From IMG/VR virus record IMGVR_UViG_3300036716_000695, positions 1 through 64,000 of that record: a DNA stretch of 64,000 bases; one strand, 5' to 3'. Every line of letters starts with the position of its first letter. The first letter of the stretch is position 1. This document shows, piece after piece, positions 41,825 through 58,427 of the stretch. Position numbers and translations under genes: made by a program. The notes beneath the pieces were generated by a model, which did not search any database, was not told where the DNA came from, and saw only the letters and a list, made by a program, of their open reading frames with translations. Origin of the DNA: a virus.

Positions 41825-42123
41825 CGGTCTTTAACAAATTGACCATTAACCATCCTACCTGTACGTTGTGAAATTACATTGTAAGCACTTTCTAAACATT
41901 TTTCTAAACTAATGTTTTGCATCTTAGCTTGAATAATCAAGGTAACCATAATATCACCCATAGCATCAATGATCTCTTCACGGTCTTTAACATTAATGGC
42001 CGTGCAAAGCTCAGTTGTTTCTTCTAATGTTTTCAGTGCTTGGGCCATTGGTGTAGCTTTAGCAAGAATACCTTTTTCCATAGCCCAGTTTTCTACTGCG
42101 CATTCTAATTCAAAATAATCCAT
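41821..42123 (-). CDS. MazG-like nucleotide pyrophosphohydrolase
   Basis: A 100-residue all-helical protein with the MazG metal-binding pattern: EETTELCTAI (ExxEL) in one helix and EEIIDAMGDIMVTLII (ExxDAxGD) in the next, then a C-terminal RTGRMVNGQFVK. The family hydrolyses NTPs or dNTPs to monophosphates; in phages it is thought to tune nucleotide pools or ppGpp-linked signals. It lies between phoH and the radical SAM gene, overlapping the latter. Confidence 0.85.
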   Translation of the reverse strand: MDYFELECAVENWAMEKGILAKATPMAQALKTLEETTELCTAINVKDREEIIDAMGDIMVTLIIQAKMQNISLEKCLESAYNVISQRTGRMVNGQFVKDR

Positions 42124-42128
42124 ATTGT

Positions 42129-42791
42129 TTAATTGTTTTTTAATAATTCTAATACTTCAGTCAATGATTCATGACGGTGGTTATCTTCTAGTACAACTTT
42201 ATATACATGAAGAGAACTTGTAATCTTAGCAACTTCATTAATTGCAGAATAATTTTTGTCTTTTAAATCTATTTGTTGATTGTCTCCACAAAAGATCATC
42301 ATTGAATCTTTACCTAGTCTACTTAAAGCCATTGAAAACTGAGAGCGTGTTAAGTTCTGAAACTCATCTACAATAACAACAGAGTGATCAAATGTCCTTC
42401 CTCTAAAATGAGATAAAGAAACCAATTCTATTTGTTCTTCAGATTCAAGCTTCTCTAAAAGCTCAGGTTTATTATAGACCTTACGCATATTAGATTTAAT
42501 AGGTACCAACCAAGGTTCCATCTTTTCTTTTTCAGAGCCAGGTAAAAAACCATTATCTTCTGTTGCCACAGTAGGCCTAGTAATAATAATCTTATTGTAT
42601 TGTCTCTTAAAAAATTGATCTAGTGCTATTTGGACAGCAAGTAGTGTTTTACCACTACCTGCGTTCCCATGTATAAAACTAAAAGGATGTTTAAGTATTT
42701 GTTCTTTTGCAACCTTTTGTTCTTCTGATAATGTAATACTAAATCTGATAGACCCTTTAGGTGGTCTCTTTGTTATATTTGTTTTTGCCAT
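42129..42791 (-). CDS. phoH: PhoH-like P-loop ATPase
   Basis: A 220-residue PhoH-family ATPase: Walker A GNAGSGKT (42-49), the family motif ITRPTVATEDNGFLPG with EKMEPW, and a Walker B VIVDEFQNL. It ends with the CGDNQQIDL sensor-like motif. PhoH proteins are RNA or helicase-related ATPases common in marine phages; the function is unsettled. Its ATG overlaps the last base of the polymerase stop (TAATG), so the two are coupled. Confidence 0.92.
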   Translation of the reverse strand: MAKTNITKRPPKGSIRFSITLSEEQKVAKEQILKHPFSFIHGNAGSGKTLLAVQIALDQFFKRQYNKIIITRPTVATEDNGFLPGSEKEKMEPWLVPIKSNMRKVYNKPELLEKLESEEQIELVSLSHFRGRTFDHSVVIVDEFQNLTRSQFSMALSRLGKDSMMIFCGDNQQIDLKDKNYSAINEVAKITSSLHVYKVVLEDNHRHESLTEVLELLKNN

Positions 42792-44797
42792 TAGAATAGT
42801 GTTAATTGATTTGGAGCAACATCAATAATATTATTAATCTCTTGCTCTATAGCTTCAAGATAATATTTTTTATCAATATCATAGTTTTCCCACTTAGGTT
42901 CTAATTGCATATCATTAAATATTGACTGCAACCATTTGCCAGCTTCTAACTGTATCTCTCTTTTATCTTTCTTGTTAACTTTAAGAATCTTTACACCGGA
43001 TTTAGATATAAAATATCTATTAATCTTCTGTAATTTTTCTTCATCAAATATACCATTCTTTATTTGTCTAGCAACCTGTTGCCAATCACCTTTTGATTTT
43101 CCACCAATACAATAATCTAATATGTTTTTATTTGTATCAATATAATCTTCAGGTAACATATCATGAACAAAGTAATGATAGATTGCCTTTGGTATAACAA
43201 GTTTAGATTTATTCTTGTGCAACTGCAGGTTATGAAAATCAAATCTACCCTTAAGTTTTACCGGGGCAAAACTAAACTTATCATTCTCTACTTTAAATAA
43301 GTAATGAGGATTGTCAGTTTTTAGTTTTCTCCAAGTAGATATATCTACATCAACCCACTTATTAATACCAATGTAGTTGTTAACATCACCAATAACCATC
43401 TTCTGATATTCATCATGCTCTAAATTAAGATTGGTTTTCTTTTCCCATTCTTCACATATAAGCATGTACTCATCATAAAATGCCTTTGGTATTATAGTTT
43501 CTACACCATCTGTGTTTTGTAATAAAGCAATAGCACCCGGTATACGCTCCATAATTTGCTCATAAAGCATCATTAGGGATAGTTGACCATTGATTGTTAT
43601 TCTCATACATAACTCAGGATCATAAAAGAAGCTATTTTCATCATTGCTAAGACCAAAAGTAGAATTAAGTATAATCTTATATACATAGTTCATTGGATTG
43701 CTCTTAGGAATCTTCTTACGCTCTTCAAAGAACCACTCATATTGATTACAGAATTCTTCTTTAGGGAAATGACCCGGAGACCACTTGTTTTTAATAGCCA
43801 GATTAGGATAAAAAGATGTTACATCAGAAGACATAATCATCATGTCATCATCCGGTTCATAAACACCTTTCTTTATAGCACCATGAACACCACCTAAACC
43901 AAAGTGTGTATTGACACCCTTATAGTTTATGTTGTATTTAAAACTACCCTTAAGACTACCTGCGTTAACTTCTAATGAAGCAAACCTATCAAACAATACC
44001 TTAAACTCTTGAGATGAGAAAGAAATGTATGGTAATATAATATCCTTAATCTTAATTGTATCCCTATAAGTTCTCATCTGTTTGAGATCTCTTTTAGGAA
44101 TATTTAAGTTTCTAGATAAATAATATCCAAATATCTCTTTACTAATCCTAGGCTCTGAGGCACTAAACATGTTAATATTGTATGTACTTGTCAATTCTTT
44201 TCTTAAAGCTACTTGAGATCTTGATCTGTTATAGATTTCTTTTGTAGACTTAACATCATTAATGCAGTATTCAAGTATAGTGTCTAGATCTTTTTGAGTT
44301 CTGATTTCAGTTTCATGATGAATAGGCATATCTAATATATTCTGCCAATCCATACTATACTGAATCCATTTAAGACTAGAACGTTTAGCCGGGTTATCCC
44401 AATGGTGCATTTTAAATAAATCTATTTGACCTATTCTCATCTTCCATTGTGGATAATCACTAAACTCTTTATTGTTTGATTTCTGTATACATCTCTGTGC
44501 ATACTTATAAATAATATTAGCAACTAGATGACCATCAAGACCTAAACCTTCTTCATCTTTCCATTTACTAACATTATCTAATATATAGTGAGTTACTTGC
44601 GCATCAAATGCTAATCCATTATAGGATATATGCCACTCTTTGTTTGTGATGTTGTCTTCTAGAAAGTTTATAAATTCTGTCTGATCATTTCTTAACCGTG
44701 ATATTACAAATATCTTAGTCTCTGTAGTTTTATAATTTTCAAAAACACCAGTAAAACAATCATAAAGTGTTTCATAATCCATTACCCAATGTTTCAT
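42791..44797 (-). CDS. Family B DNA polymerase with 3'-5' exonuclease
   Basis: A 668-residue replicative polymerase. Exonuclease residues: DYE (Asp7, Glu9), NGLAFD (Asp65) and YCIND (Asp181). Polymerase motifs: A, SSDVTSFYPN (Asp325); B, KIILNSTFG (Lys374); C, NTDGVE (Asp430). Motif C has Asn where most family B enzymes have the first Asp, but the essential second Asp is kept. Only about 50 residues separate motifs A and B, so the fingers are very short. The C-terminus is QLTLF, a beta-clamp-binding peptide. The gene overlaps the Fis-like gene by 4 bases and phoH by 1 base. This matches the PolB branch of crAss-like phages. Confidence 0.92.
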   Translation of the reverse strand: MKHWVMDYETLYDCFTGVFENYKTTETKIFVISRLRNDQTEFINFLEDNITNKEWHISYNGLAFDAQVTHYILDNVSKWKDEEGLGLDGHLVANIIYKYAQRCIQKSNNKEFSDYPQWKMRIGQIDLFKMHHWDNPAKRSSLKWIQYSMDWQNILDMPIHHETEIRTQKDLDTILEYCINDVKSTKEIYNRSRSQVALRKELTSTYNINMFSASEPRISKEIFGYYLSRNLNIPKRDLKQMRTYRDTIKIKDIILPYISFSSQEFKVLFDRFASLEVNAGSLKGSFKYNINYKGVNTHFGLGGVHGAIKKGVYEPDDDMMIMSSDVTSFYPNLAIKNKWSPGHFPKEEFCNQYEWFFEERKKIPKSNPMNYVYKIILNSTFGLSNDENSFFYDPELCMRITINGQLSLMMLYEQIMERIPGAIALLQNTDGVETIIPKAFYDEYMLICEEWEKKTNLNLEHDEYQKMVIGDVNNYIGINKWVDVDISTWRKLKTDNPHYLFKVENDKFSFAPVKLKGRFDFHNLQLHKNKSKLVIPKAIYHYFVHDMLPEDYIDTNKNILDYCIGGKSKGDWQQVARQIKNGIFDEEKLQKINRYFISKSGVKILKVNKKDKREIQLEAGKWLQSIFNDMQLEPKWENYDIDKKYYLEAIEQEINNIIDVAPNQLTLF

Positions 44798-44940
44798 TCT
44801 TTTTCTTCTTTAAGTTTATCTTTAAATGTATGTAGAGTTCTTTCATTAATACCTAAAGCTTTAGCTGCACTTCTTACAGTTTTATGCTTTTTTAGAGCTA
44901 GAGTCATTAATCTCTCTTTCATTTGTAACAGTGTTTCCAT
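44794..44940 (-). CDS. Fis-type helix-turn-helix mini-protein (48 aa)
   Basis: ATG 44940 to TGA 44794: 48 residues (METLLQMKERLMTLALKKHK, then TVRSAAKALGINERTLHTFK). The second part is a typical Fis/NtrC C-terminal helix-turn-helix, with AAKALGINERTL as turn and recognition helix. The stop overlaps the polymerase ATG (ATGA), and the 5' half overlaps the end of the upstream 110-codon gene. It probably binds DNA as a dimer, either as an architectural factor in replication or as a regulator. It was found in a frame shorter than usual gene cut-offs. Confidence 0.65.
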   Translation of the reverse strand: METLLQMKERLMTLALKKHKTVRSAAKALGINERTLHTFKDKLKEEKE

Positions 44941-45214
44941 CTTTATAATTTTTAAGTGCTACTACTTTAGCTTCTAATATTAAATCCATAATACTATCAT
45001 AGATGCTTTCTACTGCTTCAGGAGATCCCTCACGCTCTAACTTTTTATCAATCTCTCTTTCATATAAGTCAACAGTCTTGATTACTTGTTTAATCTTCTG
45101 TTTAACTTGTTGTGTATGTATATACTGTAACCCATGTGCAAGTTCACCTATGCACTTAGTCATAGCAAATAGGATGTTTACATCCATTATTTCTTCATCT
45201 GTTAATTTAGCCAT
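44882..45214 (-). CDS. Helical protein of unknown function (110 aa)
   Basis: A 110-residue protein, mostly charged helix (TDEEIMDVNILFAMTKCIGE, then VKQKIKQVIKTVDLYEREID), with a Ser/Lys-rich end. No domain recognised. It is the first gene after the terminator at 45231-45255, so it may head the polymerase transcript. Its last 59 bases overlap the Fis-like gene. Confidence 0.6.
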   Translation of the reverse strand: MAKLTDEEIMDVNILFAMTKCIGELAHGLQYIHTQQVKQKIKQVIKTVDLYEREIDKKLEREGSPEAVESIYDSIMDLILEAKVVALKNYKDGNTVTNEREINDSSSKKA

Positions 45215-45230
45215 ATAAATATATTAGAGC

Positions 45231-45255
45231 AAAAAAAAGCCCAAATTAATGGGCT
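45231..45255 (-). terminator. Intrinsic terminator
   Basis: On the minus strand AGCCCA and TGGGCT form a 6-bp stem with a 6-base loop, then eight T. It follows the 138-codon gene and separates it from the polymerase operon. Confidence 0.85.
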
Positions 45256-45288
45256 CCTTTACATTATTTAATAAATAGAATAGGCTAC

Positions 45289-45705
45289 TTATTGACCAGG
45301 CATGATAATTTTAGAAACTTTTGTTTCTTCAATATCTACAAAAAATTGTTTGTAATCATAAGAAGATGCATTGATTGCAAATATATTAATAAAGTCTTCA
45401 ATGTCTTTTTTATCTGATAAATAAAATTCAGAAAAAGTATCCACTAATCTTCTTTCTTCTTTATGTGTTTTACCTGTTTGCTTATTAGGTGTCTTAAGTC
45501 TCATAGGTTGACCATCATCATCTAACTTAGGAACCATATGATAGGATTGTTTCATCACTTTACTGATGACTGCTAAAATGCCTGACGTAGGGTCAAACAT
45601 AGCTTCTGTATAAGGTGAGTCATTACTGACTGGAATCATTGTAAATGATTTAGCATTTCTAAAACTAGAACTTACTAACATCATATTTTGTCCAATTTTT
45701 GACAT
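45289..45705 (-). CDS. Unknown protein (138 aa), last gene of the nuclease/MoxR operon
   Basis: A 138-residue protein with an N-terminal Ser/Met-rich segment (GQNMMLVSSSFRNAKSF), a central polar loop with many Lys (KTPNKQTGKTHKEERR) and a C-terminal helical segment with FYLSDKKDIEDFINIF. No catalytic motif seen. It is separated by 12 bases from the 198-codon gene and followed by a terminator, so it ends the operon. The start is preceded by an A-run leader typical of this genome. Function unknown. Confidence 0.6.
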   Translation of the reverse strand: MSKIGQNMMLVSSSFRNAKSFTMIPVSNDSPYTEAMFDPTSGILAVISKVMKQSYHMVPKLDDDGQPMRLKTPNKQTGKTHKEERRLVDTFSEFYLSDKKDIEDFINIFAINASSYDYKQFFVDIEETKVSKIIMPGQ

Positions 45706-45717
45706 ATTGATTTTTTT

Positions 45718-46314
45718 TTATTTAGGCAAATATACATTACATTCTTTTAATAAAGAAAGAAATGCACCATTTTTATTAATAACTGTTTCTTTTATCAAGT
45801 CTGGCGGGCTGCATAATTCAAACACATCTTCTAAAAGTTCTACTTCAACATCTAGCTCATCAGCATAAAATTCATGAAATCCTTCTGGTGATAAAAATGC
45901 TTCAACAAAGTCTGAAGATTTAGAATCACTAAAGAAATCTATAATTATTACCTTAGAGTTTAAACTAAATTGAGAATATTTTCCTTTTAGAAATTTGTTA
46001 AAGTCACTTTTATAGCCTGAGAAATCAAAAACAAATAAATGTTTATTATCTCCCAGGTCTATATACTCATCAAATTTAGGATGGTTTCTTATGTATCTTT
46101 TACAGAACTTATCAAATGAATCACACATTTTAACTTTGTATTCACAAAGAAATTTGTAATCATCAAAAGAGTGCACATTATCCATAGCTATATAAGTTTG
46201 CTTTGGAACGTATGCCAATCCTTTCTTTAAATCCAATAAAGGATAAAGAAAGACCCTACTCTTCTGAAAATAATCTGTATACACAATACCCATACTATAA
46301 TCTAACTTTTTCAA
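45718..46314 (-). CDS. Unknown protein (198 aa)
   Basis: A 198-residue protein rich in aromatic and acidic residues (DYFQKSRVFLYPLLDL, FVFDFSGYKSDFNKFL, VELLEDVFELCSPPDL), without a membrane segment or a recognised motif. It overlaps the end of the PD-(D/E)XK nuclease gene by 20 bases, so it is co-translated and may be a partner of the nuclease. The pattern of short strands and helices suggests an alpha/beta fold. No function can be assigned. Confidence 0.6.
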   Translation of the reverse strand: MKKLDYSMGIVYTDYFQKSRVFLYPLLDLKKGLAYVPKQTYIAMDNVHSFDDYKFLCEYKVKMCDSFDKFCKRYIRNHPKFDEYIDLGDNKHLFVFDFSGYKSDFNKFLKGKYSQFSLNSKVIIIDFFSDSKSSDFVEAFLSPEGFHEFYADELDVEVELLEDVFELCSPPDLIKETVINKNGAFLSLLKECNVYLPK

Positions 46315-47293
46315 TTAAGAAATTATAAGGTAAGCTATAATTTCTTTCATTATAATGGTATTCTGCAGCCTTAATTACATTACTAAAAGCTTGCGCCCAT
46401 TTATTAAGTGTAGCATCTGTAACTTCAAAAGTATAAACTTGGTTATATTTATCTATAACAACAAACTTAAACTCAATCTTATACTCATCTACATTATCAA
46501 TTGATTTACTTATATCTTCATAAACAAGTTTACAATAAATAGCAGCTTGAAGCCAGTAGTTATAAAACTCTACTGTATCATTAAAGTCAGCTATTGTTTT
46601 ACCTGTAGTTTTAAGATCACATATAGTTATAAGCTTCTCATCATGATTAACTTTATAGTAATCTATGTAACCATGCAAACCAAAAGGCATTTTAGATAAT
46701 GTACAACTCAGATATTTTTCTGCATGAGTTTCTATTGGGTCTAAATCAAAGTCTGTTGAAACTTCTTCAAATATTGCCATAACATCACTGTTACTTTTAA
46801 TAAACTCTGCCTGCTCTGTACACTTTAATAAAGTATCTTGATCTACAACATCAACGTTTTTGTTAGATAAGAATTCCCAATAAGGTTCAAACTCATCTTT
46901 TATAATCTTAACAATACGTTGCTCATCTGTTTTTAGAGACTGATACAAATTCATTTCTTTGAGTGAATCCAATACTATTTCAGATGGGACATCAAATAAC
47001 TTTTCTGCATCAGTATATAAAGACATGTTCTTTAAAACCTTTCTAACACTATCTGATGGTGCTTTACCAGGTACAATACTAAACTTGTTCTCAACGTTTT
47101 CAGGTTCAAACACCAAACAATGTACAAGCTTGCCTTCTACTAAATGTTTATCTGTTCTAACCTCACGGTCATTTAAAATATAGTCCTTATAAAATAAGGA
47201 TGGTGAAAATAAAAGTTTATTTAAAGAAGAGTAGCTAAACTTAAATTTATCATTTGAGTAAAACTGCTCTTCTTTTTCAATGTTTCTATTCAT
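46295..47293 (-). CDS. PD-(D/E)XK (RecB/exonuclease VIII-like) nuclease
   Basis: A 332-residue nuclease of the RecB/Cas4-related exonuclease group: FSYSSLNKLLFSPSLF (the S-x-L motif helix), GKLVHCLVF (His58), GYIDYY (Asp211), then ICDLKTTG (Asp226, Lys228), with a QAAIY helix after it (motif QxxxY). The layout is the usual H...GxxD...DxK...QxxxY. Such enzymes resect DNA ends for recombination or degrade DNA. It overlaps paralogue A by 8 bases and follows the MoxR genes, so it is part of the same operon. An annealing or RecA-like partner is encoded at 54349. Confidence 0.85.
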   Translation of the reverse strand: MNRNIEKEEQFYSNDKFKFSYSSLNKLLFSPSLFYKDYILNDREVRTDKHLVEGKLVHCLVFEPENVENKFSIVPGKAPSDSVRKVLKNMSLYTDAEKLFDVPSEIVLDSLKEMNLYQSLKTDEQRIVKIIKDEFEPYWEFLSNKNVDVVDQDTLLKCTEQAEFIKSNSDVMAIFEEVSTDFDLDPIETHAEKYLSCTLSKMPFGLHGYIDYYKVNHDEKLITICDLKTTGKTIADFNDTVEFYNYWLQAAIYCKLVYEDISKSIDNVDEYKIEFKFVVIDKYNQVYTFEVTDATLNKWAQAFSNVIKAAEYHYNERNYSLPYNFLIEKVRL

Positions 47294-48452
47294 TAATTGA
47301 GTTATTATATTTTTCCTTTAATACAAGATGTTCTAAATCAACTTTAAATACTTCAGCTCCTGGTCCTACCATTGCATTTAAGCATTTATTGAGAAATAAA
47401 GATCTGGTATTGTCAACAGCAAATTTAGTTAATTTTCTATCTTCTGTCAAAGCCATGATGTATCTATTATAAGAATAAACATTATTAGTATCATGACCAC
47501 CTTCATATGATTTTAACCGTGACCTCATAGCTTTTACATTTACTGTATTCCAATTATTAGTAGCTTTCATCCAATCATAGTGCCACCAATACAAACTAGA
47601 TACTACATTAAATGATTTTTCTATATTAGAATTAGCTAGCATTTCAAGAGCCAATGTTCTATTTTCTATATCATTACTTGTAATCATCTGTTCTATGGTA
47701 CCGTATTGATCATCTTCAATAATTGCTAAATCTTCATCAATTATTTCAGTTATTGCAGTATCAAATACAACAGTAGCTACAGAATTAACAACTCTATCAT
47801 AATCTTTAACTTTACCTTTTTCAATCATAACTACTCTAGATCCTAGATTTGCTGCTTCATGAAAAGGTTCTGTAATCTTAAGAAATTGGTCTCTCCATAA
47901 CTGAACATTATTACTACTATTATAGTAGTGTTGATTAAAAGCAACAATAGAGTTTTGATCCATTCCAGATAGTTTTTCTCTAAGCTGATTAAGAGCTCCA
48001 TCAGTAAACATACCTTTCTCTTTTGCTATAATACAAACTCTAACGAAGTCTCTGTAATCTAAAAATTTATTACTATACCAATTGTATGTGAATAAAGATT
48101 CTAAAAACTTATATGACACTACATGTATGTCTGCCTTATCACTATTCCTAGTAATTTTACAATCAAACCTTTCCTTTAACAAATCAAACTTTTGTCTTGG
48201 TAAGTTTAATTTAGGATATCTATAAATCTTTACATCTTGTAAGCTAATAACAGATGGTTGCTGTTTACCAGTAACTATGTTATGTAACCCAAAATTTGCA
48301 AGATCATCACCTGATAAATGATAGTTATCACTACTACCAACATACAGTTCATCTGTTAGTTCTATATCAAATGCTCCAGATGTTAGTTCAACGTTTTTGT
48401 TGACTGTAACATCATCTCTCTTTAAATTAAAATTATATATTTTTTTAGTCAT
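47286..48452 (-). CDS. Unknown protein, paralogue A (388 aa)
   Basis: A 388-residue protein. Residues about 73-110 read YRYPKLNLPRQKFDLLKERF, then CKITRNSDKADIHVVSY, and align by eye with the neighbouring protein (48445), so the two are tandem paralogues. The segment has a beta-alpha-beta order that recalls BRCT modules, unproven. Later parts have LALEMLANSNIEKSFNVVSS with LYWWHYDWM and a helical end. No active-site motif is visible. It overlaps both neighbours by 8 bases. It may be a structural or adaptor factor for the nuclease or the MoxR machine. Confidence 0.65.
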   Translation of the reverse strand: MTKKIYNFNLKRDDVTVNKNVELTSGAFDIELTDELYVGSSDNYHLSGDDLANFGLHNIVTGKQQPSVISLQDVKIYRYPKLNLPRQKFDLLKERFDCKITRNSDKADIHVVSYKFLESLFTYNWYSNKFLDYRDFVRVCIIAKEKGMFTDGALNQLREKLSGMDQNSIVAFNQHYYNSSNNVQLWRDQFLKITEPFHEAANLGSRVVMIEKGKVKDYDRVVNSVATVVFDTAITEIIDEDLAIIEDDQYGTIEQMITSNDIENRTLALEMLANSNIEKSFNVVSSLYWWHYDWMKATNNWNTVNVKAMRSRLKSYEGGHDTNNVYSYNRYIMALTEDRKLTKFAVDNTRSLFLNKCLNAMVGPGAEVFKVDLEHLVLKEKYNNSINE

Positions 48453-49482
48453 TTTTTAAATATTTTTGATATTCTTTTTTTACAGCTACTTTAAAAGTAT
48501 AAAGATCCCTGTTATGAATGCTTATTTCTTTTCTTACTATAGGTTCTAAATATCTGAAACTTGTTTTACATAACAATTCTCTCTCTTCTAACCAAAGTAT
48601 CATGTCCTGAGCACTCTTTCTTTCAAAATCAAGAAATCCAGATTCTTTTAACCAATACTGTAGATCTTTATCTCTGTTATCTGCATATGTTATACTACTA
48701 CAGTCTTGTGAAAATTGCCATAATAAATGATAATTTTTTTTATAATCTATAGTAGGAACAATTTTAAGAGCTAAGGCCTTATCATCACCATAAGCCTTTA
48801 ATTGCGCTTTTAAATCATTAAACAGACCTTCATCAAGAGTCATTTTAGTAGCAGATGCATGTAACACAGTCTCAGGATCAATAACACTAACATGTGTGGT
48901 ATCAATTATATGAGCCAAGTTTATAGCCATACCAGTAAGCATCCAGGTATCATATAGACTATCATTTATATCTATATCATAATATCTTACATTGTCTGTA
49001 ATCTTAGGTGTAATAATACATTCTAAACCAGAATCTGAGACTTTTTTTAGGACACCTGTTTTTGTTGCATCTCCCATTGTAGTTTCATAATTCCATATCT
49101 TATTCATCATTATAGTAGACGGGATATTTTCCGCATTCTGTAATGTATGAGTAGAAATATCCTCATGCCCAATTATAAGATCTGCTAATTCATAATCATT
49201 TGTAACAGTTATACCGTGCTCTTTAAGAGCAGCCTTTAATCTATCTTGTGATACATTACACTTAGGTAGTATAAAAGCTTTCTTTTTGGTTCTAAAAGTT
49301 TGGTCATCTTCTGTGGGGACCGTTAATATACTGTGTATTTTTTCATATGTTGTTTGATCTTGAGTACATAATACTTTATTACAGTCTGTATTAGAGAGGA
49401 CACCATAAACGGTGTCACTCTCCAATGCAAAGTAATTTAAAGCATCAGTATCAAAATCTTGATATACTGATTTATTTGCCAT
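48445..49482 (-). CDS. Unknown protein, paralogue B (345 aa)
   Basis: A 345-residue protein. Residues about 68-105 read FILPKCNVSQDRLKAALKEH, then GITVTNDYELADLIIGHEDI, the equivalent of the shared segment in paralogue A. The C-terminus is charged (FKVAVKKEYQKYLKND). It starts 1 base after the MoxR ATPase stop, so the two are expected to be made together. No known domain; the pair may form a complex. Confidence 0.65.
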   Translation of the reverse strand: MANKSVYQDFDTDALNYFALESDTVYGVLSNTDCNKVLCTQDQTTYEKIHSILTVPTEDDQTFRTKKKAFILPKCNVSQDRLKAALKEHGITVTNDYELADLIIGHEDISTHTLQNAENIPSTIMMNKIWNYETTMGDATKTGVLKKVSDSGLECIITPKITDNVRYYDIDINDSLYDTWMLTGMAINLAHIIDTTHVSVIDPETVLHASATKMTLDEGLFNDLKAQLKAYGDDKALALKIVPTIDYKKNYHLLWQFSQDCSSITYADNRDKDLQYWLKESGFLDFERKSAQDMILWLEERELLCKTSFRYLEPIVRKEISIHNRDLYTFKVAVKKEYQKYLKND

Positions 49483-49483
49483 T

Positions 49484-50752
49484 TTATTTCATTGTCATTT
49501 TAACAATCTCAGGGATCATCATTAATTTATTGAACTTTTGTTTATTACCACTAAATATTGATCTTACAATCAAATATTTTAAGTCATTAGTAAAATAGTC
49601 TTCAGTACATAGTGTCTTTAGTCTATCTGTATTCTTTTGACTTACGGTATTTTCTTTAGAATACACAACAGCATAATTTGCTAAACGTGTAGCTAATGTA
49701 GATGCTATATCAGCACGGTAATTATCATCCTTACCAATACAACTTCTAAGTTCACCTAAAATATATTGCTGATTATCATGTGTCAACAAATCTTTTGGTG
49801 TTACAAGCTTATCAAGTTTATTATTAATGAAGGTTGTGAACATTGATGCAAAAGCATCACCTACACTACCCTCACCAATCATTTGAATCATGCTGAGGTT
49901 ATCTTCAAAATTATCAAAACTTGATATAGCATTAAAGAATGTAGTAATAGATCTTGCATTTGTTTCTTGAGTTACTAACTCAGGATTCAATAACAAAAAG
50001 TTAATACATCTAGAATCTACACCTGCTTCTTCTGCCCATTGAGCCCATACATTAACATCAAACTTAAGATTTGCGGTTACATATCTAGTCTTCTGTGCAC
50101 TATCTACACTGTTAACCATATAATCTCCGTTATCCGGGTTAGCTGTTAATATAATATGCCAATCCTGTGGTAGTGTCCATGAAATATAAGACTGTCTGTC
50201 AATCAATTCCATACAAGCTTGAATAAAACGTACATCAGCACGGTTCCAGTCATCTAGTAATAAGATACCACCTGATTTTTTATCAGCAATCCACTCTGGT
50301 GGACAATAAGACATTCTGTTCTTACCAGTCATTTTGTATCCATTTTTTAGATACTCTTGTACAGCAAGTTCATCAACCCATAAACCAACTTTTTTGGTTT
50401 TTGCTTGAGGCATCTTTGCCAGAGATGATGATGCAGCAGCTCTTTGTGCAGCAGTATAAGATATGTCATTTTTATTTTCTGAAACTTTTGTCTCTTTATA
50501 CATTTGGAATTGTCTAACTGGGAAACCTACTAAGTCACCTAGCTCTTCTATCTGTGCTAAGTTTAACTTAACAAAGTTTAAATCATTCTCTTTAGCTAGT
50601 TCAACAATGGTTGACGTTTTACCAATACCTGATTCACCAACAACCTCAACAGATACAGATTGCTTACCTTCTTTTTGTAAGAATCTGTTGTTTGTGATTA
50701 TGTGGTTTACAAATCCTTTTAGTTCTGTAGCATTTAAATTTACTTGACCCAT
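49484..50752 (-). CDS. MoxR-like AAA+ ATPase
   Basis: A 422-residue AAA+ ATPase. Walker A is GESGIGKT (39-46), Walker B is GGILLLDDWNRAD, and the sensor-1 Asn region is ILTANPDNGDY. An insert of about 80 residues between the two Walker motifs (with GLWVDELAVQ and CPPEWIAD) is typical of phage MoxR/dynein-type ATPases. The C-terminal helical lid follows. It is encoded next to the VWA/metallopeptidase-like gene, the usual pairing for MoxR proteins, which act as chaperones that open or assemble target complexes. The A-rich leader before its ATG suggests strong translation. Confidence 0.88.
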   Translation of the reverse strand: MGQVNLNATELKGFVNHIITNNRFLQKEGKQSVSVEVVGESGIGKTSTIVELAKENDLNFVKLNLAQIEELGDLVGFPVRQFQMYKETKVSENKNDISYTAAQRAAASSSLAKMPQAKTKKVGLWVDELAVQEYLKNGYKMTGKNRMSYCPPEWIADKKSGGILLLDDWNRADVRFIQACMELIDRQSYISWTLPQDWHIILTANPDNGDYMVNSVDSAQKTRYVTANLKFDVNVWAQWAEEAGVDSRCINFLLLNPELVTQETNARSITTFFNAISSFDNFEDNLSMIQMIGEGSVGDAFASMFTTFINNKLDKLVTPKDLLTHDNQQYILGELRSCIGKDDNYRADIASTLATRLANYAVVYSKENTVSQKNTDRLKTLCTEDYFTNDLKYLIVRSIFSGNKQKFNKLMMIPEIVKMTMK

Positions 50753-50767
50753 TTTTACTTTTTTAAT

Positions 50768-51931
50768 TTAATTTAGTTTTATCTTTTGTCCTGGTAATTC
50801 ATCATTTATCTCTGATATACTGCTATGTACCCATAGGGTATTTTTTGGACAGTCATCAGGAGAATATGCTTCACCGTCTGTTAAATATATAAGAGCTGTA
50901 TAAACTCCTTTCTTTTCATTATAGTGATCAATTACTGGTTGGAAGCTTGTTCCACCACGACCATGTATTTCCCAATCTTTTTTAGGATTGAATTCTTTTA
51001 CACTTTTAAGCTGTGTATCACACTGTGCAACTGTAATCTTATGACCAGTTTTATGCATATGTGCTAACTCAGAGAAGAATTCTTTTAGTTCTTCTGTATT
51101 TACAGATCCTGATGTATCAACACCAACAAGTATGTGATTCTTAAACTTTATCTTTAAACCTGGATTCTCAGAATAACGTTTATTATACTTACGTCTCATT
51201 TTTCTAGTGTAAACTATACTTGAATTACCAACAAACCTTCTTAAGTAAGCTTTCCAATTAAACTTTGCAGGTTCAACATGCATTAACTTGTGAATTAGTT
51301 CTGCTAACTCTCCTGGCACACTACCTTGCTTTTTAAGAGTTTCTTGTGTTGCTTCCTTAAGCTGATGATCAACCTGTTTTTGTACAAGCTTTTTATCTGC
51401 TTCAGATAAATCATCAAATTCATTCCATGTACCATGACAATATTGTGATTCACCATTCATTTCATCCATTAGATTATCTAATGAAGGAGAACTCCCATCT
51501 TGCTGCGCTTGTTCCAAAAGTTTATAATATTCTTTTGTTCCTGCTTTAGTAGGAAGATTTAATTCAGGAAAACTTGAGAGTAATAAACCACCTTCAGGTA
51601 ATTTACTTTCCAGTATGTACTGGTTGATCTCTAAATCAGCAGCTATGTTAAATAACTTATGATTAGAATATAGATCTCTCATTACTAAGTGCCCAAATGC
51701 AATGTGTAATAGCTCATGCTTTACCAAACCATACCTATGATCTTCACTTAAGTTTAAGTAAAAATCAGGATTGATTGTTAACTGCATGCCAATACCGTGT
51801 TTACTAACACCTGCTGTAGGTATTTTATCACTGTATTGTTTATTTATACCAATTAAAAAAAGCCCGTAAAAGGGCTCTTCAAATATTAAACTTTTAGTTG
51901 TCCGTGCAACTATATCTTGTATGTTCATCAT
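50768..51931 (-). CDS. VWA protein with N-terminal metallopeptidase-like (DUF2201-type) domain
   Basis: A 387-residue protein. The N-terminal half has KHELLHIAFGH (His72, Glu73, His76, His81) and then NIAADLEINQ, the zincin-like signature of DUF2201-type domains. The C-terminal half is a von Willebrand A domain: VGVDTSGS (MIDAS Asp272, Ser274, Ser276), a later GRGGTSFQPV (MIDAS Thr) and LIYLTDGEA (MIDAS Asp). The partner MoxR gene lies 15 bases downstream. By analogy with RavA-ViaA-type pairs it would be the substrate-binding arm of a MoxR chaperone; with a complete HExxH it might also cut a target protein. Confidence 0.85.
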   Translation of the reverse strand: MMNIQDIVARTTKSLIFEEPFYGLFLIGINKQYSDKIPTAGVSKHGIGMQLTINPDFYLNLSEDHRYGLVKHELLHIAFGHLVMRDLYSNHKLFNIAADLEINQYILESKLPEGGLLLSSFPELNLPTKAGTKEYYKLLEQAQQDGSSPSLDNLMDEMNGESQYCHGTWNEFDDLSEADKKLVQKQVDHQLKEATQETLKKQGSVPGELAELIHKLMHVEPAKFNWKAYLRRFVGNSSIVYTRKMRRKYNKRYSENPGLKIKFKNHILVGVDTSGSVNTEELKEFFSELAHMHKTGHKITVAQCDTQLKSVKEFNPKKDWEIHGRGGTSFQPVIDHYNEKKGVYTALIYLTDGEAYSPDDCPKNTLWVHSSISEINDELPGQKIKLN

Positions 51932-51933
51932 AT

Positions 51934-52224
51934 CTATATAATTTTATCTAATATTTTTTTATAAGTTTCTTCATTATATGTACCACCAATATCAATAAGT
52001 ATACATTTTATTGTAAGAGAACCTAAAGAATATTTAATGTTTCTACTTTTCAAAAACAATTTTCTTGCATCATAATGCAAAGCTTTAGCAAATAGCTTAT
52101 CAGTTATATATTTATCTTGTAACTCTAAACTATTATAACAATGCATTCCTAAATCAAAATCAACAGGTAGGCCATTAAGTAATCTTAAAATATTAAAGAA
52201 ATCACTTTTCTTTATTACATTCAT
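51934..52224 (-). CDS. Small unknown protein (96 aa)
   Basis: A 96-residue protein of mixed alpha/beta pattern (FFNILRLLNGLPVDFDLGM, LFAKALHYDARKLFLKS, LTIKCILIDIGGTY). It overlaps the end of the RusA-like gene by 23 bases and precedes the VWA gene by 2 bases, so it links the recombination genes to the MoxR/VWA operon. No motif recognised. Confidence 0.55.
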   Translation of the reverse strand: MNVIKKSDFFNILRLLNGLPVDFDLGMHCYNSLELQDKYITDKLFAKALHYDARKLFLKSRNIKYSLGSLTIKCILIDIGGTYNEETYKKILDKII

Positions 52225-52600
52225 CAGTTAATATTTCTATCCATACTCCAGGATTCTGTTTATCATATGTATATTGAATAAATACAGGAAGAATAAACTC
52301 TGCATTATCATCCTCAATCCAACCCGCTTTAACCATATCATCTTGAACTGTTTGTGCAGGATTGATGTAATCAAATTTATGTTTGGTACCCCTTACAAAT
52401 GTAAAAGATATCTTAGCCGGCAAAGTACATTTAGATAATTCTGCTTTAAACTCTTCAGCATACTTTTCATAGTATTCTTTAGTAAGCTTTCTATAGTTAA
52501 CTACTGTCTTACTAGCTATAAAGTATTTACCCGTCCATCTTCTTCCATTTTTACTGGAAGGTACGGAACCTGGTATCCACCATTTTTTTGGTTTTTTCAT
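52202..52600 (-). CDS. RusA-like Holliday junction resolvase
   Basis: A 132-residue protein matching the RusA fold: an N-terminal PGSVPSSKNGRR motif (RusA basic loop), then HKFDYINPAQTVQDDMVKAG with WIEDDNAEF. The acidic residues in the DYIN, QDDM and EDDN positions correspond to the three catalytic aspartates of RusA. It would cut Holliday junctions or branched replication intermediates as a dimer. It follows the primase gene closely, fitting a role in phage recombination-dependent replication. Confidence 0.8.
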   Translation of the reverse strand: MKKPKKWWIPGSVPSSKNGRRWTGKYFIASKTVVNYRKLTKEYYEKYAEEFKAELSKCTLPAKISFTFVRGTKHKFDYINPAQTVQDDMVKAGWIEDDNAEFILPVFIQYTYDKQNPGVWIEILTDECNKEK

Positions 52601-52601
52601 A

Positions 52602-53576
52602 TTATTTATTAAGTGTTTGCTTTAGTAATGGTTTTAATGCTTCATGTAACTTATCAAAGCCATGTTTTTCCATAGCATCTGATATGTCTTTGCATATAGT
52701 TAAGTAACATCCTTGAATATTATATGCATTTGCATATCTTTCAATTGCTTTAAAACCTGCTTCATCATTATCAAACAATGTAATAACCTTTTTATACTTT
52801 TTTTTAAAGTTTTGTATAATGTGAGGTTTAATTATAGTATTCTCTGAGTCTGGTGCTACAACTTCAACGTTATAACCCATACTTTTTAAACACATTGCAT
52901 CTTTTAATGATGAACATATTACTAAATAAGGTTTCTCATATTTCAATTGATCTAGTCCCTGAAGATAAGTATTAACTTTATGAAATCTATGTTTACTCTT
53001 GGGTTGATATATTTTATATACTTCTCCATGTTTATTAAAGTAACCATAAATTCTTGGTGCCTGTATTTTCAATGTATTAATGTGGCCATCTTCTTGCTTT
53101 ATGAGATTATAATACTCAATTGGCTTGACATTATACAAATCCAACATAGACATACCTATCCTATAGGATAACCAGTAATCTGCATCTAATTGATTCCAAG
53201 GTCTGTGTTTTATAAAATCCACTTCCCATTTAGATACAGGTTTAAATTCAATTTTAGCTTTACCATTCTGCTTGACATATATATTATAGTCAGATATAAT
53301 TTTCATTACAGCTTTAGTATAACCAATATTAAACATAAGTTTTACTAAGTCAACTTTATTACCATTATTACCAGTTGAGAAGTCTTTAAATTTATATTGA
53401 CTTATTCTTGGGTCAACATAAACACAAAAGCTTGGTGTTTTCTCATTAGGATTAAATACTGAATGTATTTTTATATCCTGTCCTGTTAAGGTTTCTGATA
53501 AATTTAAATAATATTGAAACACCCAATAACTTGGTATATCATCTATTTCTAATACTAAATTTTTAGTGTTAAACAT
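52602..53576 (-). CDS. DnaG-like primase with Toprim domain
   Basis: A 324-residue protein. An N-terminal alternative start 30 bases upstream (53606) would lie in a terminator hairpin, so ATG 53576 is preferred. Residues about 30-100 resemble a CHC2-type primase N-domain (VFNPNEKTPSFCVY, KFKDFSTG, GNKVDLVKLMF) without the zinc-ligand set. Toprim motifs follow: LVICSSLKDAMCLKSMGY, with Ser in place of the usual catalytic Glu, and ITLFDNDEAG (DxD). The function is RNA primer synthesis near the helicase. The changed Glu position is a point to verify. Confidence 0.78.
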   Translation of the reverse strand: MFNTKNLVLEIDDIPSYWVFQYYLNLSETLTGQDIKIHSVFNPNEKTPSFCVYVDPRISQYKFKDFSTGNNGNKVDLVKLMFNIGYTKAVMKIISDYNIYVKQNGKAKIEFKPVSKWEVDFIKHRPWNQLDADYWLSYRIGMSMLDLYNVKPIEYYNLIKQEDGHINTLKIQAPRIYGYFNKHGEVYKIYQPKSKHRFHKVNTYLQGLDQLKYEKPYLVICSSLKDAMCLKSMGYNVEVVAPDSENTIIKPHIIQNFKKKYKKVITLFDNDEAGFKAIERYANAYNIQGCYLTICKDISDAMEKHGFDKLHEALKPLLKQTLNK

Positions 53577-53589
53577 ATTAATCAAATTG

Positions 53590-53616
53590 AAAAAAAAAGG
53601 GGGCATTACACCCCCT
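53590..53616 (-). terminator. Intrinsic terminator after the SSB-like gene
   Basis: On the minus strand GGGGG and CCCCC (53611-53615 and 53599-53603) pair around a 7-base loop, followed by eight T (53598-53591). It ends the SSB/RecA-like/DnaB transcript and lies in the 62-base gap before the primase gene. Confidence 0.85.
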
Positions 53617-53638
53617 CTAATTTTAGGTTAATTTCTGA

Positions 53639-54313
53639 CTACAGATCAAAGTCACTTGCTGATGAAGTTGTTGGCTCAAAGCTTGTTGTTGCTGGAGCAT
53701 CTGTTTTAACAACTTTTCTTAAGTGAAGAGGATTGTTAGAATCAAATGTAATTAATTTAGATGACTCTACATCAAGTGCTTCTATTGGCACATTACCTTT
53801 ACTCATTTTTGGTAGAAACAAATCATTGTTAATATAACCTTCTTTGTTTTCCCATTCACGTGCTGCAAGGCATACGTTTACAAAACCTGAATTAGAAAAG
53901 ATACCATTACATGCACTCATGAATTCTTCAATTGTGTTTGCACTAATCTTATCTAGATCCGCTCTTTTGTTTAGAGTTTCAGCTAAAAATACCATAGCTT
54001 TCATAACTTCATTGTCACGGCTAATCTCATTACCATTAGGAAGAATAGTATCTTTATATGCATAAGGGCTAAACCTTACTCTACCTACTTGACCTGAATA
54101 ACGTGGTCCATTAGGATTATTTTGATCTACTAAAAATCCTTGAAATTCACCTGTTACAGGCTCACTTTCTACATGCAATGTAATGTTATATGCATTTGCA
54201 TCATATGGTGTTTGATCAAAAGTAACAGAGTTAATCTTTACTTTTTGGTTACCTGTTCCAATAACTGGTTTTTCTTTGCCTGATCCGGCTGTCATTCCTT
54301 GTGTGTTAAACAT
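53639..54313 (-). CDS. Putative single-stranded DNA-binding protein
   Basis: A 224-residue protein with a beta-rich core (residues about 20-110: KVKINSVTFDQTPYDANAYN, then ITLHVESEPVTGEF and VGRVRFSPYAY), followed by a helical part and a flexible acidic tail ending SASDFDL. OB-fold-like core plus a disordered acidic aromatic tip is the layout of phage SSBs. It lies directly upstream of a RecA-like ATPase and near helicase and primase genes. It has a strong A-rich leader (AAAAAGTAAAAATTATG), fitting high expression. The function is inferred from architecture and context. Confidence 0.6.
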   Translation of the reverse strand: MFNTQGMTAGSGKEKPVIGTGNQKVKINSVTFDQTPYDANAYNITLHVESEPVTGEFQGFLVDQNNPNGPRYSGQVGRVRFSPYAYKDTILPNGNEISRDNEVMKAMVFLAETLNKRADLDKISANTIEEFMSACNGIFSNSGFVNVCLAAREWENKEGYINNDLFLPKMSKGNVPIEALDVESSKLITFDSNNPLHLRKVVKTDAPATTSFEPTTSSASDFDL

Positions 54314-54348
54314 AATTTTTACTTTTTAATTATTGATTTTTAAATAAA

Positions 54349-55032
54349 TTACTCTTCATATTTTTTAATGCAGTCTTTTACATACTGCAGGTTGTTTGGG
54401 ATGAAGAAGTCTTCAAACATACCTTGTGGTGATTTACATGTGTTCTCTCCATTGTTTTGAGTTTCAAAACCATATTCAAGTTCACCATCATCATTTTTAT
54501 TTACCTTTCCAAATAGAACTATAGAAAACAGACCTTCCAAAGTTAGTGTGTTATCTATCATTTTACCAATGGTTTTTGCTTTAATTTTTCTATTACCATT
54601 GATATCAGTTGAATCTTCAGAATGAGTTAAAAATATTACAGTTAAGTCATCCCTTAGATCTTTAGGCATTTTAGCTACTGTAGCTAAGTTTGCTGCAATC
54701 TGGGTAAACTTATCATAACCTTTCTCATTAGCTCTATCAAAGTATTCAAAAGAACTCATATACTGCCAATCATCAATAACTAATGTTTTGATCTTTGGCA
54801 TTTTTTGATCTACATGTGTAATTGCCTTCATTATTCCAGCTGCTGATGAAGAAGAAGCCAAATTACCTTTTGGATTTTCTTTATTGATTGCTGTATAATT
54901 AGATTTCCAACCTTTAAAAGGTAGTGGTTTGTTTGCAATGTTAATTATAAATGTTTCATCAGGATCTAAGTGTCTAATTGATGTTGATTTACCTGTACCT
55001 GAATCTGCTATTATTAATATGCTGTTTGCCAT
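54349..55032 (-). CDS. RecA-like P-loop ATPase (Sak4/AAA_24 type)
   Basis: A 227-residue ATPase: Walker A ADSGTGKST (9-17), Walker B TLVIDDWQYM, and a Thr/His sensor VIFLTHSEDS, with the length and layout of the Sak4/AAA_24 single-strand annealing ATPases of phages. The N-terminal strand precedes the P-loop directly, as in RecA cores. It is encoded next to the SSB-like gene and a DnaB-type helicase, and a RecB-like nuclease and RusA are in the same strand block, together forming a recombination set. The exact subfamily is inferred. Confidence 0.8.
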   Translation of the reverse strand: MANSILIIADSGTGKSTSIRHLDPDETFIINIANKPLPFKGWKSNYTAINKENPKGNLASSSSAAGIMKAITHVDQKMPKIKTLVIDDWQYMSSFEYFDRANEKGYDKFTQIAANLATVAKMPKDLRDDLTVIFLTHSEDSTDINGNRKIKAKTIGKMIDNTLTLEGLFSIVLFGKVNKNDDGELEYGFETQNNGENTCKSPQGMFEDFFIPNNLQYVKDCIKKYEE

Positions 55033-55035
55033 TAT

Positions 55036-55536
55036 TTATTTTTTTAATATTTTAATTAATTGTTGAAGTGAATTGTTTATCTCATTTAGTTTACCTGCTA
55101 TTAGATTTTCATCATTGTTAGATGGTTTATCATCCGGGTTAGGTAACTCTGCAAAGTCTAGATCTAATTTACCTCTACTTGTTACATCATTAATAACCTT
55201 AAGTTCACTTGCAGGAACTAAATGTCTTTGGAAACCTGAGTTACTTGTAATCATCTCATACTCTTCTCTCCAGTGTGGATTAAATTTCAGAAGGTACAAA
55301 GTTCTCTTAGGATCTTCTGAGTCATAGTTTATACTTACAAACTCTGTATAAATGTCTTGACTCTTTTCCATCTCACTAGGAAAGAAACTTACATGTAAGT
55401 CATCTTTACCTGGTGGTCTATATGCCATCTTAGGTATAAACAGTGCATTTAAATTACCAATAGTTTGAAAGTAATCTTCATGCTCTTCTTTTAATTTATT
55501 TACTTTTTGTTTACGTTGTTCTGGTGTTATTCCCAT
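55036..55536 (-). CDS. Unknown protein (166 aa) beside the recombination ATPase
   Basis: ATG 55536 is preferred over the in-frame ATG 75 bases upstream (55611), because it has the A-rich leader AAAAAGTAAAAAAATG and avoids a long overlap with the helicase gene. The product is a 166-residue charged protein (TPEQRKQKVNKLKEEHEDYF, then SFFPSEMEKSQDIYTEFVS) with a C-terminal helix that could be a coiled coil (LNEINNSLQQLIKIL). No domain recognised. The position between helicase and RecA-like ATPase suggests a replication or recombination accessory. Confidence 0.65.
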   Translation of the reverse strand: MGITPEQRKQKVNKLKEEHEDYFQTIGNLNALFIPKMAYRPPGKDDLHVSFFPSEMEKSQDIYTEFVSINYDSEDPKRTLYLLKFNPHWREEYEMITSNSGFQRHLVPASELKVINDVTSRGKLDLDFAELPNPDDKPSNNDENLIAGKLNEINNSLQQLIKILKK

Positions 55537-55555
55537 TTTTTTACTTTTTAATTTG

Positions 55556-56512
55556 TTATCTGCGTTCTTGTTGACCAGGGGTTTGCATTTCTTCAATCTG
55601 CATTTGTTCAAACTTTGCTTTAAAGAAACTCATTCTTGCATCACCATTTCTTGCTTTCAAAAAGTGTAATACCAAAGTTCTATCATTTTCTATAATATAT
55701 CTATCTGGCCCATAGAACCTAATCTTTTGTTTAGCAGGACGGTTTATACCAATAAGCATATCTGCATGTTGTAACATAGCATCTGAACCAAATATATCTG
55801 ACTCAAGAATATAATTACCATACTTACCATCTATTGCTCTATCTGGATTATCAATATTTCTATTAAGTTGTGATAGTGAAATAAACAAACATGGATAATC
55901 TCTCTTACATTGTGTAAAAAACTCACCTAATTCAAATAACATATCTAATGTGTTATTCTGATAAGGTGCTCTCTTTACAAGCATTGTATGATCCAATGTT
56001 ATAATAGTTTTTTTACCTTTATGCTTGTTCATGTACATATCAATTTGCTCACGCATTTGATTTACAGTCATAGGTGTTGAAACTATATCTACCGGATGCT
56101 TAACTCTTTCCTTAGCATACTGATGACATGTATTCAATACATCAGAAGTAAGTATACTACCAGCACTACATAATTCTTTATATGTTTTACCAGTAATAGA
56201 ACTAAACTCTCTAATAGCTGATGTTCTACCAACCATCTCAAACTGAAATTCTAATACTCTAAAATCATCATCTGGATTTAATGCAAAAGATTCTCTTATA
56301 ATCTGATCTTTAATAAGTGTTTTACCTGAACCAGGTCTACCACCAATTACAGTTAGAGTATTCCATTCTAAACCATCAGTAGCAGCATCATTAAATTTAG
56401 GCCACGGTGTATATATAGACTTTTCAGTCCCATTTTGTCTACCTTGCATGTATTTTAATGCTTCATTGAATGCGGAATATTGCCCCACCCATCCTTCTGT
56501 TGATTTAGCCAT
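55556..56512 (-). CDS. DnaB-like replicative helicase
   Basis: A 318-residue protein with the RecA-like C-terminal core of DnaB: Walker A GGRPGSGKT (57-65), Walker B region IITLDHTMLV, FISLSQLNRNID (motif H4-like with the conserved Gln and Asn-Arg), and a late DMLIGINRP and LHFLKARNG pair for the DnaB arginine finger/base. The N-terminal DnaB domain is missing, as in other short phage helicases. It would unwind the fork with the primase (52602). Its ATG overlaps the end of a 52-codon gene. Confidence 0.88.
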   Translation of the reverse strand: MAKSTEGWVGQYSAFNEALKYMQGRQNGTEKSIYTPWPKFNDAATDGLEWNTLTVIGGRPGSGKTLIKDQIIRESFALNPDDDFRVLEFQFEMVGRTSAIREFSSITGKTYKELCSAGSILTSDVLNTCHQYAKERVKHPVDIVSTPMTVNQMREQIDMYMNKHKGKKTIITLDHTMLVKRAPYQNNTLDMLFELGEFFTQCKRDYPCLFISLSQLNRNIDNPDRAIDGKYGNYILESDIFGSDAMLQHADMLIGINRPAKQKIRFYGPDRYIIENDRTLVLHFLKARNGDARMSFFKAKFEQMQIEEMQTPGQQERR

Positions 56513-56663
56513 TCTCTATTGTATATATAATACTTGTTACATTATCTATGCTTGAATTACATGATTTAGTGTCTGGTTCCCATTCACCATCTCTTAGCAT
56601 TTGAAAATCTTCAAGTACAAGGTTTAATTTATTTAATACTTCTGCTTGTTCTTCTACTGTCAT
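56505..56663 (-). CDS. 52-residue small acidic protein
   Basis: ATG 56663 to TAA 56505: 52 residues (MTVEEQAEVLNKLNLVLEDF and onward, ending IIYTIENG). It is flanked by an ATGA overlap with the previous gene and an 8-base overlap with the helicase ATG, and codon use fits the neighbours. It is probably a small helical accessory protein. Not recognised. Confidence 0.55.
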   Translation of the reverse strand: MTVEEQAEVLNKLNLVLEDFQMLRDGEWEPDTKSCNSSIDNVTSIIYTIENG

Positions 56664-57671: not shown

Positions 57672-57692
57672 TTATGTTTATTATCTAGTTTA

Positions 57693-57724
57693 CAAATTTA
57701 AGGAAATTTTACCAGTCTATCAAA
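57693..57724 (-). promoter_or_regulatory. Promoter for the initiator-helicase operon (TTTG-N20-TAAATTTG)
   Basis: Minus-strand TTTG (57724-57721), exactly 20 bases, then TAAATTTG (57700-57693), an exact match to the Bacteroidota -7 TAnnTTTG box. It lies 21 bases before the ATG at 57671 and overlaps the last codons of the UDG gene. Confidence 0.65.
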
Positions 57725-58383: not shown

Positions 58384-58392
58384 ATTTCTTTC

Positions 58393-58420: not shown

Positions 58421-58427
58421 TTTTATT

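Follow-up and report, generated by a model that had tools for sequence, protein, structure and literature searches.

What work might a phage assign to a MoxR-type ATPase and a metallopeptidase-bearing VWA protein encoded in one tight run with a RecB-like nuclease and two fast-changing proteins? The question is raised by virus record IMGVR_UViG_3300036716_000695, which comprises 90,102 bases and of which positions 1 to 64,000 (the window, 64,000 nucleotides) were analysed computationally. A preliminary description had singled out five minus-strand genes in the window as an operon, and the open reading frames (ORFs) agree with its coordinates:

46295 to 47293, minus strand: RecB/ExoVIII-type PD-(D/E)XK nuclease (PDDEXK_1 4.9e-7; phrog_412 4.3e-16, PHROG exonuclease VIII)
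47286 to 48452, minus strand: PA, a protein with a BRCT-like domain, a fast-changing middle and an ARM/HEAT-like C-terminus
48445 to 49482, minus strand: PB, a probable BRCT-like and helical-repeat partner protein, probably a distant paralogue of PA
49484 to 50752, minus strand: MoxR-type AAA+ ATPase (phrog_1297 4e-35), a relative of N4 gp24
50768 to 51931, minus strand: VWA, a protein with an N-terminal zincin (HELLHIAFGH) and a C-terminal VWA domain with complete metal ion-dependent adhesion site (MIDAS), a relative of N4 gp25

The nuclease and PA overlap by 8 bases, as do PA and PB; 1 base separates PB from MoxR and 15 bases separate MoxR from VWA. The preferred answer, with a probability of roughly 0.4, is that MoxR and VWA may form a remodelling machine with a built-in metalloprotease, which would work in the replication phase through dedicated, fast-diversifying adaptors.

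VWA carries both of the domains that the preliminary description had read in it, matching Pfam DUF2201_N (metallopeptidase, 1.9e-18) and DUF2201 (VWA, 6.6e-16) above cut-off. The loci compared are the closest ones, drawn from the best 80 per scan; 195 of them reach 6 kb past VWA, and several loci come from one contig. Ten residues of the HELLH...H metal site and MIDAS were checked and are invariant in all 54 clusters of related loci. MoxR was likewise correctly recognised, and eight of its residues, among them Walker A, the D-D of Walker B, an Asn and two Arg, are invariant in 53 of 53 clusters. The sensor 1 and Arg-finger roles of these residues are presumed from their positions.

The VWA family extends to other phages. 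Relatives occur in 438 of the 50,697 records of the phage collection (E 0.001), including LIT1 and pYD6-A (Schitoviridae by taxonomy line) and the jumbo phage K64-1, and at least 596 are found in viral contigs. The label HNH endonuclease is attached to this family in phrog_1314 and in 19 of the 60 phage records listed; it is apparently wrong and hides the family, because the domains found are zincin and VWA. Eight other phages were compared: the annotation puts an ATPase immediately next to VWA in Moorella phage, AD45-P1, S-TIM5 and K64-1, one gene away in LIT1, further off in phiFa and pYD6-A, and none within 8 kb in phiKT1024. MoxR and VWA thus at least tend to co-occur. Possible third components are a COG4676 gene of about 669 residues after VWA-MoxR in Alteromonas phage AD45-P1 (L294, 8602-10611) and a 353-residue gene after MoxR-VWA in Moorella phage (L152, 9155-10216). 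Open-licence PMC full texts yielded no report of a client for VWA/zincin relatives.

PA, PB and a small gene upstream are the candidate partners of this pair:

51934 to 52224, minus strand: g96, a 96-residue gene directly before VWA, resembling the C-terminal helical domain of PA

The AlphaFold2 model of PA is good (mean pLDDT 86.5, pTM 0.66), and that of PB is poor (pLDDT 54). PA residues ~70-242 resemble a BRCT domain, with a best Foldseek E of 0.18 (probability 0.99) and a best VIA Z of 7.0 (root-mean-square deviation 3.7 over 80 residues), a Z common for models without a clear match. BRCT stands in the title of 25 of the first 33 VIA rows, and the matches include PARP1 and RFC. The modelled BRCT-like domain is a likeness rather than proof, and it probably carries a large insert, since 80 of ~173 residues align. 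PA residues 244-319 resemble ARM/HEAT helices (VIA Z 3.5-4.0), a common arrangement. These likenesses are relative to the folds listed in VIA, and a fold outside that list is possible. At the sequence level, 34 PA members give no BRCT match at E 0.1, and 6 of 31 PB members give a weak BRCT signal. PB has no family above cut-off in Pfam, PHROG and further scans. Searched by sequence against the PDB, PB has no match and PA has one chance-level match; the BRCT-like parts alone retrieve no BRCT chain.

The preliminary description had called PA and PB tandem paralogues, which holds as probable. Profile comparison of their BRCT-like stretches gives P 0.0038, and both models have A0A6J5LXR8 as their best viral structure match, with PB at E 0.013 from a poor model that calls for caution. 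Four proteins of the viral structure library match PA with an E below 0.001: one from an uncultured phage, one from a crAss-like virus and two from one podovirus. Paralogy by full sequence was dropped, as BLASTP finds no similarity (E 0.54) and hhalign is weak (P 0.034): of 60 column-shuffled decoys, 2 reach its score in one direction and 3 in the other. The likeness of g96 to the PA C-terminus is firmer. Among 13 families set against PA it scores best (hhalign P 8e-4), none of 60 decoys reaches that score, and g96 is found in 49 of 54 clusters. A link between PB and g96 is not claimed, as 2 of 60 decoys score as high. MoxR and VWA thus look to be flanked by related helical-repeat proteins, PA and g96, and probably PB. 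As a separate observation, PA residues 112-167 (47952-48119) weakly resemble the C-terminal part of LAGLIDADG homing endonucleases (E 4e-4 to PADLOC HEase); 29 of 34 weak PDB rows are LAGLIDADG enzymes, many of them variants of one, with a best E of 0.033. No homing-endonuclease Pfam family is matched at E 0.1 in 34 PA members.

Between close relatives, PA and PB are set apart by the speed at which their proteins change. Across the 37 clusters complete for 13 genes, median pairwise identity is lowest for PA (40%), followed by g198 (51%), PB and the nuclease (66%), and primase and an SSB-like gene (67%); it is 82% for VWA, 87% for MoxR and 91% for DnaB. In 17 pairs of close relatives, selected for a MoxR identity of at least 95.5%, PA (86%) and PB (87%) have the lowest median identities, and every other gene reaches at least 95%. 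The median ratio of nonsynonymous to synonymous change (dN/dS) is 0.27 for PA and 0.19 for PB, the highest of the 13 genes, against 0.01-0.14 for the other 11. The dS of PA (0.28) is ordinary beside that of the others (0.14-0.31), so the protein itself changes; the raised dS of PB (0.43) suggests exchange by recombination in addition. In one pair of loci (L145 and L051), PB is 79% identical and VWA, MoxR and PA are 95-98% identical, with dS raised in PB, primase and RusA; a segment was likely exchanged there by recombination.

Eleven non-overlapping pairs, hand-picked from the 17, were pooled for regional dN/dS. PA gives 0.41 at the N-terminus, 0.13 in the BRCT core, 0.51 in the middle and 0.23 at the C-terminus, and PB gives 0.37, 0.14 in its BRCT-like part, 0.30, and 0.17 at the C-terminus. 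Comparison values are 0.20 for g198, 0.18 for the SSB-like gene, 0.10-0.12 for VWA and 0.05 for MoxR. For both dN and dN/dS, PA lies above MoxR in every one of the 11 pairs and above VWA in 10. Gene by gene, PA has the higher dN in all 11 pairs against MoxR, Sak4, g198 and PolB, in 10 against VWA, the nuclease and primase, and in 8 against RusA; PB dN is higher than that of MoxR, nuclease, primase, Sak4 and PolB in all 11, of VWA and RusA in 10, and of g198 in 9. Fast amino-acid change that lies mostly outside the BRCT core suggests that PA and PB follow a changing partner.

The order of the five genes is conserved, a positive outcome of a check proposed with the preliminary description. VWA-MoxR-PB-PA-nuclease is found in 191 of 195 loci, that is, in all 191 related loci, which fall into 54 clusters of an apparently crAss-like clade of uncultured phages; the other four are named phages (L152-L155) obtained by VWA alone. 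The 1-base gap between MoxR and PB and the 8-base overlap between PA and the nuclease are the median and both quartiles across related loci. The packing of the proposed operon is real, but the five genes are not separate from the rest of a tight minus-strand run, which also takes in g96 and these genes:

45289 to 45705, minus strand: g138, last gene of the tight run
45718 to 46293, minus strand: g198, next gene after the nuclease (ATG at 46293; TTG at 46314 also open)
52202 to 52600, minus strand: RusA-like resolvase (PF05866 2.5e-5; phrog_1682 1.4e-19), present in 54 of 54 clusters
52602 to 53606, minus strand: primase (Toprim; phrog_12622 1.4e-25), a possible first gene of the transcription unit

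Neither g198 nor g138 has a Pfam or PHROG family. The five-gene set lies within a run of replication genes, with DnaB, Sak4, the SSB-like gene and PolB around it.

Under the preferred reading, a MoxR ring would spend ATP on pulling or reshaping a client, VWA would dock the client, and the zincin domain would cut it. PB, PA and perhaps g96, with their apparent BRCT-like and/or ARM/HEAT-like modules, would serve as adaptors, delivering clients or positioning the machine on DNA. PA and PB would keep pace with a changing partner, for which host proteins at or close to replicating DNA are the likeliest candidates. The domains and their invariant sites, the kept order, the setting among replication genes, the BRCT-like and ARM-like model of PA, the fast change of PA and PB, the likeness of g96 to PA, and the action of bacterial MoxR-VWA pairs on dedicated complexes all argue for such a machine.

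Several observations weigh against it. The Walker B of MoxR reads D-D, with Asp in place of the catalytic Glu, in 53 of 53 clusters, and six other phage ATPases aligned with it have E at the second place; this replacement may mean that MoxR hydrolyses ATP slowly. The BRCT match of PA (Z 7.0, E 0.18) falls in a commonly seen range, and there is no BRCT sequence match above the curated cut-off (PB scores 14.1 bits against 21.3). Across all clusters, the median identity of PB equals that of the nuclease and is about that of primase, and g198 is lower. Selecting close pairs by high MoxR identity favours a slow MoxR. The BRCT core of PA and the BRCT-like part and C-terminus of PB are no faster than g198 or the SSB-like gene, and all dN/dS values lie below 1; positive selection is not claimed, and relaxed constraint is possible. 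For Vibrio phage phiKT1024, the annotation shows no ATPase within 8 kb of VWA. Virion genes lie around or near the pair in K64-1 and S-TIM5; in LIT1 the pair adjoins helicase and polymerase genes and in Moorella phage a helicase is nearby, so its role may differ between phages. Finally, the neighbours from DnaB to PolB are collinear in related loci too. Order therefore does not single out the five genes, the self-contained machine suggested in the preliminary description is not shown, and adjacency within a clade whose whole module is collinear is weak evidence of joint work.

Of the rival explanations, the one that survives best is still a doubtful one: MoxR and VWA would remodel protein on DNA ends, or clear it from them, for the RecB-like nuclease, Sak4 and RusA, with PA and PB binding DNA through their BRCT-like domains. 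The nuclease is well founded, scoring 30.4 bits against PDDEXK_1 (cut-off 22), and seven residues checked, including H58, D211, D226, K228, Q249 and Y253 of the H, D, DxK and Q..Y motifs, are invariant in 54 of 54 clusters. It directly follows PA, typically with the 8-base overlap; Sak4, RusA, primase and PolB are nearby, PARP1 and RFC stand among the BRCT structure matches of PA, and in Thermus phage phiFa a RecB family exonuclease is annotated ~8 kb after VWA. In LIT1 and AD45-P1, on the other hand, the annotation places no RecB/ExoVIII-type nuclease less than 6 kb from the pair (hypothetical proteins aside). Here g198 and g138 are linked to the run as tightly as the nuclease; with ATG starts, each of the 54 clusters has a 1-base gap between the nuclease and g198. 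The nuclease is probably part of a recombination set with Sak4 and RusA, and it may be only a neighbour of the MoxR-VWA set.

Next, and unlikely, is the explanation that there is no functional unit at all, only replication-operon genes kept together by block inheritance of the module. The collinearity of the DnaB-PolB neighbours speaks for it, as does a run that is tight throughout from RusA to g138, beyond the five genes. Against it, g96, PA and probably PB share modules and flank MoxR and VWA, and the tendency of MoxR and VWA to go together extends to other phages.

The least probable rival is a chaperone-protease for virion assembly or maturation. It draws on a published proposal for the same domain pair in jumbo phages (Iyer 2021, PMC7824862) and on the pairs near structural genes in K64-1 and S-TIM5. 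Gene position disfavours it here: the run shares the minus strand with replication genes, and the plus strand carries terminase, portal, capsid and the largest ORFs. The pair also has replication-gene surroundings in LIT1 and Moorella phage, and a structural role gives no obvious reason for the fast change of PA and PB. The other roles that the preliminary description had raised, DNA-end processing and host targeting, are both possible.

Described systems share the core of this locus. RavA-ViaA and NorQ-NorD are bacterial MoxR-VWA pairs, each an AAA+ ATPase with a VWA cochaperone, that are reported to act on dedicated protein complexes. Neither pair is known to have a zincin domain or BRCT/ARM partners. 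N4 gp24 and gp25 are tabulated as a MoxR/VWA-type pair in PMC2784036, and PMC7824862 proposes a virion assembly role for the MoxR and vWA/metallopeptidase pair of jumbo-phage group 2.2. The present locus has the same arrangement, a MoxR beside a VWA protein with an N-terminal zincin, and the window VWA matches the family along its length. The MoxR motifs (apart from D-D), HExxH and MIDAS are all present, and the two genes are adjacent in 191 of 191 related loci. The differences here are PB, PA and g96 alongside, the replication-gene setting and the D-D Walker B. The vWA-MoxR ternary conflict systems (PMC8195603) combine a MoxR-vWA core with a third component; the five genes gave no VMAP, iSTAND or TERNS3 match in Pfam or PADLOC (presence of each model in these libraries unchecked), and no effector was seen behind the VWA domain. 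Acidianus two-tailed virus also has a viral MoxR-vWA pair, which, as cited in PMC7824862, lacks a peptidase domain and is reported for archaeal-virus tail assembly. The preliminary description knew of no described system of this composition, and the whole set is indeed not found in open-licence PMC literature, but the MoxR and VWA/metallopeptidase core is in print. The known part is that core, and the new part is the company of PB, PA, g96 and the nuclease.

Of PA and PB themselves, neither has a tblastn match in the 50,697 phage records. Viral contigs hold 154 PA relatives and 130 confirmed PB relatives with a single protein (179 with a profile). The genome collection adds one PB relative, L204 (WLWP01000004.1), a 114.7-kb contig of a Pseudomonadales metagenome-assembled genome that is counted among the 191 loci; it is either a host hint or mis-binning. 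The terminase is most similar to those of crAss-like or Flavobacterium phages, with ~25% identity (122 of 50,697 phage records match), and its gene, like those for portal and capsid, belongs by PHROG to head families. From this the phage would be crAss-like, and Bacteroidota would be a first guess for its host. Profiles were also run on 18 named records, 17 taken by terminase (13 with Crassvirales in the taxonomy line) plus Moorella phage. PA and PB profiles give no match at E 1 in these 18, a search with no positive control. The VWA family is found only in Moorella phage and in none of the 17 crAss-like or related records, and the MoxR family is found in two (Moorella phage and, weakly, cr114_1).

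Hairpins inside the coding sequence of VWA and PB are a second feature of the locus, and two terminator-like hairpins lie near the ends of the run:

51860 to 51877, minus strand: hairpin in VWA codons 19-24, then a U-run (terminator-like), in 54 of 54 clusters; loop TTTTAC
49399 to 49416, minus strand: hairpin in PB codons 23-28, with a stem of at least 6 in 39 of 52; loop GTTTAT
45238 to 45255, minus strand: terminator-like hairpin after g138, of a kind found after g138 in 13 of 54 clusters
53596 to 53618, minus strand: terminator-like hairpin between the SSB-like gene and primase, overlapping the first primase codons as listed; similar in 11 of 53 clusters

VWA codons 19-24 read GAG CCY TTT TAY GGG CTY, followed by the U-run. 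GAG and GGG are used in all 54 clusters, CCC in 49 (CCT in 5) and CTC in 40 (CTT in 14); the shares of GGG, CCC and CTC within their codon sets are 7.5%, 5.7% and 1.9%, yet they prevail here. The hairpin with U-run can form in 54 of 54 clusters, and among the 4080 codon positions of 13 genes no second site does so in as many as half of the clusters, with PB codon 22 the runner-up (24 of 53). With no U-run required, VWA 18-19 and PB 22-23 are the only sites above 60% out of 4106 positions. No such hairpin turned up in 975 stretches scanned separately within four genes. For the window sequence, fold stability is modest in VWA (z -2.2, 5 of 200 shuffles as stable) and marked in PB (z -6.1, 0 of 200). 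Variation in the VWA hairpin is confined to wobble pairs (40 of 54 sequences), and the pair-count shuffle control is uninformative because the columns hardly vary. Synonymous conservation is high in the VWA hairpin region, but Sak4 and the start of MoxR are higher, so the case rests on pairing and rare codons.

The PB hairpin varies more. With two clusters excluded for gaps, all six pairs form in 30 of 52 sequences and five in 2, and the remaining 20 have two to four. The share of paired cells is 85%, compared with 77% after shuffling. At one pair of the stem, 22 of 46 distinct rows have A-U and 20 have C-G. Residue T occurs with Gly codon GGT in 24 of 24 cases and P with GGG or GGA in 28 of 28, with 6 T/P changes on a PB tree built without the hairpin columns; recombination of the PB gene start could mimic part of this linkage. 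A consistent U-run after the PB hairpin was not found: 1 of 52 sequences has at least 5 T among the 8 bases that follow the 6-pair stem, and 24 of 53 do if the stem may be longer or shifted. The VWA and PB hairpins are possible attenuators, processing sites or protein-binding sites. A sigma-70 promoter scan was uninformative (92 found, 98.7 expected), and an Rfam scan of 41800-58600 gave no match.

Elsewhere in the window, a tRNA cluster (Met, Leu, Arg) lies at 61850-62093 on the minus strand. Large plus-strand ORFs of 836, 1091 and 1022 residues at 3106-8951 and 35933-39001 have no PHROG match at E 0.001, and ORFs of 4700 and 1941 residues adjoin them.

In its boldest and rather improbable form, the remodelling machine would be a re-targetable device for protein disassembly or destruction. 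A constant MoxR-VWA-protease engine would be served by PA and PB adaptors that track host proteins met during replication, such as DNA-bound defence or nucleoid proteins, with dosage set by the VWA and PB hairpins. For the VWA/zincin family, PA and PB are suggested as candidate client-facing partners, and the speed at which they change is a hint that their own partner changes too and is perhaps a host protein. The hairpins inside the coding sequence raise a second, separate question of control.

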